Assembly (NCBI RefSeq): GCF_004339015.1
Contig: NZ_SMFQ01000003.1
Coordinates: forward strand, 1,178,001 to 1,242,000
Origin: Cocleimonas flava
Lineage (GTDB): Bacteria > Pseudomonadota > Gammaproteobacteria > Thiotrichales > Thiotrichaceae
Direction of reading: 5' to 3'
Length of the DNA: 64,000 nt
Shown piece after piece: positions 15,999 through 61,951 of this stretch. A model generated the notes under the pieces. That model was given only the letters and a program-made list of their open reading frames with translations. It was not told where the DNA came from and made no database searches. Position 1 is the first letter of the stretch. Each line of letters starts with the position of its first letter. The position numbers were made by a program, and so were the translations under genes.

Positions 15999-16709
15999 AT
16001 GGAAGGTGCGATAGAAGCAATAAAGGCAAGTTTCTCGCTTGATGCCGGATTGCTGGTTCATATTGCAACCTTAGGTTATGTGCTAGGTTTTCTTCTAAAA
16101 AATCAACTGCTTTTGCGCTTTCTGGTTTTAGGATCGACGGTTCTGTATATCGTTTATTACTACATCTACCCTGCTCAACCCTTATGGGCAGCTATTATGG
16201 GGAGTGTGCTACTAATCATTGCCAATATCATCGGCACTCTTTCCATCATCTATGATCGGCTACCGATTAAAATTGATCCTAAGCATTTACCCATTTACCA
16301 TAGTCTTCAAGGAATACGACCCGGTGAATTTAGACGATTAATCAAAGTAGCAGAGTATCAAACCACCGAAGGGAAGTTTACCTTAACCCATGAAAACGAA
16401 GCGCCAAGCCATTTGTATTATTTAGAAAAAGGCACGGGAGAAGCGAAAAAGAAAGGAAGCACCTTTACCATTCCAGAGGGACGTTTTGTCGGAGAAATTA
16501 GTTTTATTCTAGGAGGAAATGCGACAGCCACAGTGAACCTTGCAAAAGGCAGTACCTTTTTGTCGTGGGAGAAAACTGTACTCAATAAACTTCTGGAGAA
16601 ACATCCCAACTTACAACGCGCGTTCGAAGCAAGAATCGCTCGTGATATGGCCAGCAAACTCGCCTCGGCAAATTCCATCAAAATTGATAATAGTGTAGGA
16701 CTCAACTAG
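15999..16709 (+). CDS. Popeye-like membrane protein with cyclic-nucleotide-binding fold
   Basis: A 236-residue protein. Three hydrophobic segments (about residues 17-35, 40-57, 61-82) are followed by a soluble domain with a cNMP-binding-type beta-roll (LTHENEAPSHLYYLEKGTGEAKKKGSTFTIPEGRFVGEISFILGG). Three membrane helices plus such a domain is the Popeye-domain (POPDC) layout. The canonical phosphate-binding Arg-Ala loop of CRP-type domains is replaced by NATATVNLAKG, as in diverged family members. AAATGGAGGCAC precedes the ATG. Ligand binding is unproven. Confidence 0.75.
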   Translation: MEGAIEAIKASFSLDAGLLVHIATLGYVLGFLLKNQLLLRFLVLGSTVLYIVYYYIYPAQPLWAAIMGSVLLIIANIIGTLSIIYDRLPIKIDPKHLPIYHSLQGIRPGEFRRLIKVAEYQTTEGKFTLTHENEAPSHLYYLEKGTGEAKKKGSTFTIPEGRFVGEISFILGGNATATVNLAKGSTFLSWEKTVLNKLLEKHPNLQRAFEARIARDMASKLASANSIKIDNSVGLN

Positions 16710-16819
16710 CTGAGGGTTATGATTATTTGGGTTAAAAGTTTTCAATTGAATCAGAAATTGAATTAAAAATTCGATGCTTATCTCTGCCAGCTAAAGGCTA
16801 TCTGAAAAACACTTTTCCC

Positions 16820-16933
16820 AAAAATAATGTGCCCCTTCACCGGGGTAAGTGAAAGGGCACTTGGGAGACTGGTAGTTATTTTATTTTTATATTTACTAAA
16901 CTACTCTTCGCCTCAGGGGCTTGCTAAAAATTC
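16820..16933 (-). ncRNA. Candidate small RNA 1
   Basis: Read on the minus strand: a promoter-like pair TCGTCA (16962-16967), 16-base spacer, TATAAA (16940-16945); then about 114 nt ending in the hairpin GTGCCC ... GGGCAC (16829-16860) with a U-rich tail (ATTATTTTT). The same arrangement recurs at 17386-17541 with the same spacing. The inner stem differs (TTCAC/GTGAA here, CGTT/AACG there), and the pairing is preserved in both. I infer a transcribed RNA of an unrecognised family. Confidence 0.5.
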
Positions 16934-17265
16934 ATTGTTTTTATACTTAACTATAATGCAATGACGATGCCAACTTTTCTTTAATAACGCTATCTTATTG
17001 TTTTAAATGTATTTATTTGTTTTGTTGGTTTTTTTACATCATTATCTTTATCGTCACTAGCTGACAATTTCTCTATGTTTGTGTCACACATCCACATTTT
17101 GTCAGTCCTGTGTCATTGATTTGGTCATTTATTCGATCATCATTGACTCATTAATAGTGGTAGAGAAAATTCAGCGTATTCAGAATGATCAGCTAGTGAG
17201 AAAAACTGAGTAACAATGATATGCAATATGAAGTATCAGAAGGTATTGCGAAAGATAAACGATAA

Positions 17266-17295
17266 GTCACCCCCCTACTTTGAGGCGTATTTTTT
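17266..17295 (+). repeat. C6TACTT repeat, copy 8
   Basis: Exact core, then TGAGGCGTA and T6. It lies between the two sRNA candidates, far from any plus-strand stop codon. Confidence 0.9.
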
Positions 17296-17385
17296 AAATA
17301 TGCTGTTACTTAATCATTTATGCGTCATGTGGTTTACGAATTAACAATATATAGCGAAATATAGCTAGAGAAACGCATAAGGCAG

Positions 17386-17507
17386 AAATAAGTGTGCCCC
17401 GACGTTGGGCAACGACAGGGCACTGGTGAGACTAAGTTAATCTATCCTTGATGTATTAACTCGTTAACGTCTCTCGGTTTGGGTTTGTTTCAGAATTTTA
17501 TAAATTC
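17386..17507 (-). ncRNA. Candidate small RNA 2 (paralogue of RNA 1)
   Basis: Minus strand: -35 TTGTCA (17536-17541), 16-base spacer, -10 TATAAA (17514-17519), then about 120 nt ending in GTGCCC ... GGGCAC (17394-17423) followed by ACACTTATTTCT. Shared with RNA 1: the promoter spacing, AGTCTC just before the hairpin, the GTGCCC/GGGCAC stem and TTGCATTA upstream. The middle portion is diverged. Confidence 0.5.
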
Positions 17508-17767
17508 TTTGTTTTTATAGCCGTTGCTAATGCAATGACAATGCCACTTATCCCAAAAAAACGTTAACCATTTGATAAATATAAATAATAAAATAAAAAA
17601 GGCGATTATATTATGACTGTATTAGCAGTCACTTATTGACACTTTTGTAAGGTATGTGACACATACCCAGGAATTGTCAGTCGTTTGTTAATAACAAAAC
17701 AGTTAAACGCATGGTAGTTATCGACATAATAGTTAACAGCATGGTAGCTGTAGAACTCGATTAAAAA

Positions 17768-18763
17768 TCAAAGACTATTCTTAAGAATCATGCGGCGCTC
17801 ATCTCGCGGAGACATATTAAACATATCCTTATAAGACTTACTAAAATGCGGTGAAGATTTAAACCCACAAGAAATGGCAATATCAGTCACTGGCTTATCT
17901 GTTTGCAGCAATAAGCGTCTCGCATTACGCAGACGTAATCGCAGGTAATACTGCATCGGTGTGCAATCTAAATAGACACGAAAAGAACGCTCTAATTGAC
18001 GTCTAGACAGCTCAACATAGTCCGCTAACTCTTTTGACGACAAACACTCTTCTAGGTTCGATTCCATCAAACGCACGGCTTCTGTGAGTTTCGGCTGACC
18101 CGTTCCAATCTGTTGGCGCAATGGAATCCTCTGCGGATCGCCCATGCCTCGTACATGATCAACCAATAACTTTTCACTCACTGCAGATGCCAAACGACGC
18201 CCATGTTGTAAAGATACCAGATGATGCATCATATCAATCGAAGCGGTACCACCTGCACAGGTAAAACGGTTACGATCGATTTCGTATATATCATCGGTTA
18301 AATTCAGGTGCGGGTATTTTTCACGCATCGCGGCAATATGATCCCAATGCATGGTACAGCGATAATCATTCAGTAAACCAGCCCTGCCCAACACATAAGC
18401 ACCAGTACACAAAGAACCGAGCATTACACCTTTCGCATCTTGCTGGCGTAACCACTTGCCGATAGAATCAGTCCAGTACAGTTGAATATTGTGCCCACCA
18501 CAGACAAACAAGGTTTCGTAGGTATCGACATCTTGCAGGCTTTTATCCGGTTTAAATTCCAGACCATTACTCGCCTTCACAACATCATCATTTGGGGTGA
18601 TTGTCTCCCAGCTGTAGATTTCACTTCCCTTGATATTGTTCGCCAAACGCAGCGTTTCTATCGCTGAGGCAAATGCAATCAACGAAAAATTAGGCATCAT
18701 CAAGAAGCCAAAATGTCTGGGGCTGTTGCTTTCTTGAGCTTGATGTGTCGGTTGATTATTCAA
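17768..18763 (-). CDS. GlxA/GbdR-type AraC-family regulator
   Basis: A 331-residue regulator with an N-terminal DJ-1/PfpI-like domain (FGFLMMPNFSLIAFASAIETLRLAN; elbow GSLCTGAYVLGRAG) and a C-terminal AraC helix-turn-helix (LSSKELADYVELSRRQLERSFR... TDIAISCGFKSSPHFSKSYKDMF). This is the GlxA group that includes GbdR and ArgR-type regulators of glycine betaine, carnitine and amino-acid catabolism. The start is a TTG at 18763 with GGGAA seven bases upstream; no in-frame ATG exists further out. It is divergent from an FAD amino-acid oxidase gene, its likely target. Confidence 0.88.
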   Translation of the reverse strand: MNNQPTHQAQESNSPRHFGFLMMPNFSLIAFASAIETLRLANNIKGSEIYSWETITPNDDVVKASNGLEFKPDKSLQDVDTYETLFVCGGHNIQLYWTDSIGKWLRQQDAKGVMLGSLCTGAYVLGRAGLLNDYRCTMHWDHIAAMREKYPHLNLTDDIYEIDRNRFTCAGGTASIDMMHHLVSLQHGRRLASAVSEKLLVDHVRGMGDPQRIPLRQQIGTGQPKLTEAVRLMESNLEECLSSKELADYVELSRRQLERSFRVYLDCTPMQYYLRLRLRNARRLLLQTDKPVTDIAISCGFKSSPHFSKSYKDMFNMSPRDERRMILKNSL

Positions 18764-54969: not shown

Positions 54970-55046
<77 letters not shown>

Positions 55047-61364: not shown

Positions 61365-61681
61365 TTTTAAGTAGTTAAGTAGCCAAGTAGTAGTCAAAAC
61401 AATAGACTAATTAATCAGTCTAAAACAGCGTAAATAAGCCCTTTAAGTCACCCCCCTACTTATAGCCCTTTTTTACACAAAGAATTAAGCAGAAGTAAGA
61501 AATTAAAAGGCTTACTTTGGTGCTTAGCGCGTGTTACAATGCGCCGTTTTTAGGGTAGTCAATATACAATTGAGGCTTGTTTCACTGAGCTAATAGGATT
61601 TTGACTACTTTTTTCAACCCAATCTACCCTGATATATTCATAAAATATACTTTGTAGGTACTTATCTGGAACTTAGGAACT
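61365..61681. promoter_or_regulatory. Intergenic/leader region of rpsO
   Basis: Contains C6TACTT copy 27, a candidate promoter (TTACTT at 61512, 17-base spacer, TACAAT at 61535), and an inverted repeat GTAGTCAA (61555-61562) with TTGACTAC (61601-61608) followed by TTTTTT. This looks like a leader with an attenuator-like hairpin before rpsO. S15 autoregulation is known in E. coli, but the structure here is not shown to be the same. Confidence 0.5.
61447..61474 (+). repeat. C6TACTT repeat, copy 27
   Basis: Exact core, then ATAGCCC and T6. It lies after truB, and could terminate the operon, although the next gene is in the same direction. Confidence 0.9.
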
Positions 61682-61951
61682 ATGTCTCTGAACGCAGAAA
61701 CTAAAGCGAAAATCGTTGCTGAATATCGCTTGTCAGACACTGACACCGGGTCTTCGGAGGTGCAGGTTGCGCTTTTAACAGCGAATATCAAGCATCTTAC
61801 GGAGCACTTTAAAATTCACAAGCATGATCATCACTCACGTCGTGGTCTATTGAGAATGGTTAACTCTCGTCGTAGCTTGCTTGATTATTTAAATCGAAAA
61901 GATTCAGCTCGTTATCAAGACCTTATTAAACGTCTCGGTATTCGTCGCTAG
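61682..61951 (+). CDS. rpsO: Ribosomal protein S15
   Basis: An 89-residue S15 in full length: [72 protein letters not shown]. Binds 16S rRNA in the 30S subunit. Followed by a strong terminator and the pnp gene. Confidence 0.98.

Follow-up and report, generated by a model that had tools for sequence, protein, structure and literature searches.

The genes that PilR is known to regulate, such as pilA, encode proteins. In Pseudomonas, PilR controls pilA and other genes (PMC6058289), and no small RNA (sRNA), whether as a reported target of PilR or as a PilR-controlled family, appeared in the literature searched, the coverage of which was incomplete. The Qrr RNAs of Vibrio (LuxO/sigma-54) resemble the genes described here in being multicopy sRNAs with sigma-54 promoters and an NtrC-family response regulator, but their enhancer is different, they belong to quorum sensing rather than to a pilin regulator, and they gave no Rfam match here. 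The enterobacterial GlmY and GlmZ RNAs (GlrR/sigma-54) have enhancer sites of the TGTC type. They likewise form a homologous sRNA pair with sigma-54 promoters, whereas their enhancers have a TGTC-N10-GACA arrangement, and neither an Rfam match nor a link to glmS was seen in the present case. CrcZ and CrcY of Pseudomonas (CbrB/sigma-54) share with the genes described here a sigma-54-driven noncoding RNA, A-rich motifs, and more than one copy; here, in contrast, every module has a C-rich seed that does not vary and a hairpin of the terminator type, and CbrAB is exclusive to pseudomonads (PMC6296734). In Listeria, LhrC1-5 is also a multicopy sRNA family under a single two-component system, with redundant UCCC sites in loops and in a single-stranded stretch (PMC4132741), but it is a Firmicute family controlled by LisRK, does not involve sigma-54, and had no Rfam sequence match here.

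The window (the whole 64,000-nucleotide stretch of Cocleimonas flava DNA that was analyzed) contains an ORF-poor gap at 16710-17767, with no substantial ORF, flanked by a Popeye/cNMP-binding protein gene (15999-16709, plus strand) and by the gene for a GlxA-type AraC regulator (17768-18763, minus strand). As the first-pass annotation of this DNA had proposed, the minus strand of the gap carries two homologous blocks, ~574 bp apart, and the GTGCCC/GGGCAC end hairpins with U-rich tails that it described are present at 16829-16860 and 17394-17423; the inner pairs of these terminators do differ between copy 1 and copy 2 with pairing retained. The promoter pair (sigma-70-like, 16-base spacer) that it had assigned to each block was abandoned, since promoter-like matches occurred at the chance level (4 found versus 4.7 expected), and its span left out both enhancer regions. 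A perfect sigma-54 (-24/-12) promoter, TGGCAYNNNNNTTGCA, precedes each block, at 16957-16972 and 17531-17546. These are the only two sigma-54 matches in the 64-kb window, where 0.25 would be expected, and genome-wide there were 36 such sites compared to 4 for the reversed pattern. The motif TGGCAY-N5-TTGCW thus lies directly 5' of both sRNAs, as in a sigma-54-dependent bacterial sRNA, and transcription probably proceeds from these promoters, with starts predicted near 16946 and 17520. Elsewhere in the window, a ribosomal S15 leader (RF00114) scored barely over the gathering threshold at 61630-61738, and a tRNA lies at 54970-55043.

Copy 2, the canonical member, spans 16819-16946 on the minus strand, with a predicted start at ~16946, placed 12 nt beyond the -12 GC of its sigma-54 promoter, and a predicted end at ~16819. 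The promoter, TGGCATCGTCATTGCA (16957-16972, minus), is kept in the sister species, and a cluster of TGTCA/TGACA half-sites at 17053-17116 (minus) forms the predicted enhancer (UAS). Within the RNA, the unpaired seed AGCAAGCCCC (16916-16925, minus; mean unpaired probability, 0.81) is followed by a covarying hairpin, P1/P2, with an A-rich loop (16865-16914, minus) and by the intrinsic terminator hairpin P3 with a C-rich loop (16829-16860, minus), which was identified by terminator search and covariation. Copy 1, the divergent member, spans 17385-17520 on the minus strand (predicted start, ~17520; predicted end, ~17385). Its promoter, TGGCATTGTCATTGCA (17531-17546, minus), is also kept in the sister species, and its predicted UAS, again a TGTCA/TGACA half-site cluster, lies at 17628-17680 (minus). 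The equivalent of the seed is altered to AACAAACCC (17481-17489, minus; mean unpaired probability, 0.99), and it precedes a hairpin at 17428-17473 (minus) and a terminator hairpin at 17394-17423 (minus) found by folding and terminator search. A small hydrophobic peptide read across the copy 1 promoter was dropped by eye because it has no start codon. Two tandem 30-nt imperfect repeats (GTTAATAACAAAACAGTTAAACGCATGGTA) occupy 17687-17746, between the GlxA-type regulator and the copy 1 UAS, and a terminator-like hairpin, CGCCTCAAAGTAGGGGGGTG, at 17268-17287 (minus) between the two sRNA genes may be the remnant of another module.

Both blocks folded far better than shuffled sequences (z scores of -4.4 and -4.0, or ~4 standard deviations), and three terminator-like sites were found in the region compared to 0.6 expected. 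A lack of covariation in homologues, which the first-pass annotation had named among the grounds for refuting its proposal, was not what an alignment of 26 modules showed: 95.3% of cells paired, compared to 77.5% in shuffles and 41 to 48% in slid controls, two-sided changes occurred in 18 of the 23 pairs, and the covariation score was 0.64 versus 0.28. In the long hairpin of copy 1, the sister species has a compensatory change of A-U to G-C (GAGAC/GUCUC to GAGGC/GCCUC). The constant parts of the RNA are the unpaired ones, namely, AGCAAGCCC and the A-rich loop (AAAAAUAA or AAUAACAAUAA); the seed and this loop are near-invariant across 43 modules from eight genera, and the UUCCCC terminator loop is constant and unpaired in several genera. 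The U-rich tails of the window copies are interrupted, and in another genus, the terminators of single-module copies have perfect U runs. A conserved structure that ends in an intrinsic terminator is thus found behind the promoter, again as in a sigma-54-dependent bacterial sRNA. Single-module copies of ~125 nt are common, and several genera also have promoters that each drive two or three modules. At L081, L085, L198, L203, L208, L217, and L218, a single sigma-54 promoter is followed by two or three repeated sRNA modules, and some modules of polymodular loci are shortened or have altered seeds.

The "twin small RNAs" of the first-pass annotation are well supported by homologues, covariation, promoters, and terminators, but the multicopy family extends beyond the twins, which are just two of its members. 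Inspection of all sigma-54 sites in the genome brought up a third copy, on contig C1 near 798,500 (L038/L112), with a core near-identical to that of window copy 2 and with the same promoter and UAS as the window copies. The sister species, an uncultured Cocleimonas, has the same three copies. A DNA query consisting of the core sequence of the third copy matched every genome of the genus and most of those in a second one, frequently with the matches in tandem, while a search with copy 1 returned little outside the sister species, as follows from its divergence. A covariance model, R1, was built from 26 modules, including window copy 2, and matched in 56 of 63 genomes and in all eight genera of the bacterial family to which Cocleimonas (Thiotrichales) belongs, although some of the weaker matches are individually marginal; the usual copy number is two to four per genome. 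In the window, R1 scored 114 bits (E value, 5.7e-26) on copy 2 at 16818-16929, which is a training sequence, and 28 bits (E value, 7.7e-5) on copy 1 at 17383-17488, a difference that marks copy 1 as divergent; the next best match in the window had 14.8 bits. In other genera, the sRNA likewise stands behind a perfect sigma-54 promoter and a UAS. A broader core model of 43 modules, searched with strict filters against 369 gammaproteobacterial genomes, matched only in three that belong to this family; given those filters, weak relatives in other families could escape.

The position downstream of the GlxA-type regulator, correctly recorded at the outset, turned out to be uninformative, because this arrangement was seen in the sister species alone (the sole return of a genome scan with the regulator neighborhood), while a glyS-like gene (named by eye) adjoins, with its 3' end, the third copy as well as a copy in another genus. 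A functional link to the adjacent regulator was rejected on the same grounds. In Rfam searches, no match at the gathering level fell over either gene, only unrelated subthreshold matches were returned, and the covariance models of Qrr, CrcZ, GlmY/GlmZ, LhrC, and others did not identify the RNAs. In another genus, the region downstream of the sRNA (L197, 2176-2296) gave a subthreshold match to Rickettsia sRNA47 (RF02800; 39.7 bits; E value, 6.6e-7). The literature searched, within its incomplete coverage, contained no sRNA family described for Thiothrix, Leucothrix, or Cocleimonas and no published work on regulatory RNA in this sulfur-oxidizing group. These comparisons give good support to the reading of the two blocks as tandem genes of an uncatalogued, lineage-specific, multicopy sRNA family.

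The regions upstream of the promoters point to a particular class of activator. At 54 sRNA-linked sigma-54 promoters (one of which, L063, is probably spurious), TGTCA/TGACA half-sites between -200 and -60 averaged 4.04, compared to 0.25 for a set of 32 other sigma-54 sites from the genome (P = 2e-14) and 0.57 in shuffles. The half-sites are concentrated at -160 to -80, and those of the window copies are kept between both species; one locus, L204, has no UAS. Such a distal cluster is consistent with an enhancer for an NtrC-family activator, and an IHF-like site lies between the half-sites and the promoter in 83% of cases versus 33% of shuffles. The promoters of the pilA genes are likewise of the sigma-54 type (TGGCACGGCAAATGCA and variants), the same cluster, of three to five half-sites, lies equally far upstream of them, and two matches of a genome-wide UAS scan that predated the location of pilA fall upstream of pilA genes. 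An RNA family with a conserved structure, sigma-54 promoters, and a UAS in common with pilA is therefore well supported by comparative sequence analysis, and its sharing of both promoter and enhancer with pilA is what would be expected of a member of the PilR regulon. Two near-duplicate pilA genes (L163 and L167; G000:C1:144060-146820) each have their own sigma-54 promoter and UAS, with a third pilin gene in between, and carry a similar, potentially hairpin-forming leader right behind the start site.

In the five genomes examined, NtrC and a single response regulator are the only GAFTGA-type activators present in every one, and G029 has just these two. The second has the HTH motif TRWNRTAAAKxLGMTFRQLRYRIKKY, and its gene follows a histidine kinase gene with six predicted transmembrane (TM) segments, the number present in PilS. 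No PilR model was returned for this candidate by NCBIfam; it is so named on account of its HTH motif, the kinase encoded next to it, and the link to pilA, which together argue for the presence of PilR and PilS genes in the genome. Published PilR sites comprise TGT-N11 and GTCT-type elements (PMC6058289), to which the half-sites found here are similar but not identical. Since the promoters and enhancers of the sRNAs match those of the pilin gene, the RNAs are probably under the pilus regulator, and since NtrC and PilR are the sole activators common to the five genomes, PilR is the likely activator of the sRNAs. On contig C3 (L023, L024, and L062; near 184,000 and 605,000-608,000), two similar sigma-54 response regulators are encoded, and a kinase-like gene near one of them is preceded by a sigma-54 promoter whose TGTC repeats are arranged differently.

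That the activator is instead another sigma-54 enhancer-binding protein, most plausibly NtrC, which would place the RNAs in nitrogen control and not in the pilus regulon, seems improbable to us: NtrC is indeed the other activator common to all five genomes, but four sigma-54 promoters (L040 to L043) of a nitrate-type cluster near ntrC have no TGTC/GACA upstream, which makes NtrC unlikely, and the pilA promoters carry the same cluster as the sRNAs. The half-sites are also unlike the NtrC consensus. An untranscribed repeat or a set of chance hairpins is scarcely credible, given the covariation and phylogenetic footprint, the co-conservation of promoter, UAS, and terminator, and the position beside glyS-like genes kept in two genera.

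Two further explanations accept the RNA and assign it a different role. In the main alternative, a sponge RNA, A-rich loops (ARN/AANAANAA), repeated in polymodular transcripts, would titrate an RNA-binding protein such as Hfq, as CrcZ does, in place of pairing with mRNAs. AANAANAA occurs in all 53 transcripts, with a mean of 2.87 compared to 0.64 in shuffles (the selection of transcripts being partly circular), CrcZ is likewise driven by sigma-54, and the polymodular forms, with two or three modules behind one promoter in several genera, would also suit a protein sponge. We nevertheless regard this role as unlikely, because it leaves the invariant unpaired AGCAAGCCC and the conserved terminator loop unexplained; moreover, copies of a single ~125-nt module are common, the Rfam search gave no CrcZ match, and Hfq was not found in the genome's own assembly. 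A sponge for CsrA like CsrB/RsmZ is very improbable. Hairpins that contain GGA, such as CTGAAGGAACAG, do occur in leaders of some genera, but A(N)GGA is not enriched (1.98 versus 2.40) and is absent in 21 of the 53 transcripts, among which the many GGA motifs in hairpin loops typical of CsrB/RsmZ were not found, and the canonical window copy 2 has no GGA.

We therefore favor, with fair though far from full confidence, tandem genes for multicopy, C-rich, trans-acting sRNAs that are induced by PilSR and sigma-54 and pair with mRNAs. A PilR-type enhancer-binding protein, together with the six-TM kinase PilS, would bind the TGTCA half-sites 80 to 160 bp upstream, probably helped by IHF-assisted bending; both this binding and the role of IHF, like control by PilR and sigma-54 as such, we infer from the arrangement of the sites. 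The sigma-54 polymerase would then initiate at ~16946 and ~17520 to give an RNA of ~125 to 135 nt with an A-rich 5' part, the unpaired C-rich seed (AGCAAGCCC), a hairpin with a chaperone-type loop rich in A, and an intrinsic terminator, often with UUCCCC as its loop. Coproduced with pilin, the sRNA would most likely use its C-rich sites, much as LhrC of Listeria does, to pair with target mRNAs at their ribosome-binding regions and so form a posttranscriptional arm of the pilus regulon, in which multiple copies and fused modules may provide higher dose or seed diversification. The pairing mechanism, the chaperone, and the targets are speculative. Exact complements of the 9-nt seed occur 37 times in the genome, an excess over a reversed-pattern control that was not codon matched, and none of the 37 lies over a Shine-Dalgarno sequence or marks a convincing target; a match 33 nt into a Tat-signal gene (L260) was set aside as unconvincing. 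Hfq (PF17209) is encoded in five related genomes, which represent four other genera, and a search of the window's own assembly (G000) did not return it. The altered seed of copy 1 (AACAAACCC) suggests a shifted set of targets.

On a broader scale, we lean slightly toward the view that PilSR, via sigma-54, drives a dedicated, multicopy, partly polymodular, C-rich sRNA family throughout the bacterial family, such that pilin levels or surface contact sensed by PilS would be converted into broad posttranscriptional control. The family is new to Rfam and has a clear consensus and a testable promoter logic, and its modules, single or fused behind one promoter, offer a natural experiment on how sRNA dosage changes and seeds diverge. 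If the proposed control is true, it would make this sRNA family the first under PilR, and through an sRNA arm in common with pilin, pilus sensing would gain a fast and broad output.
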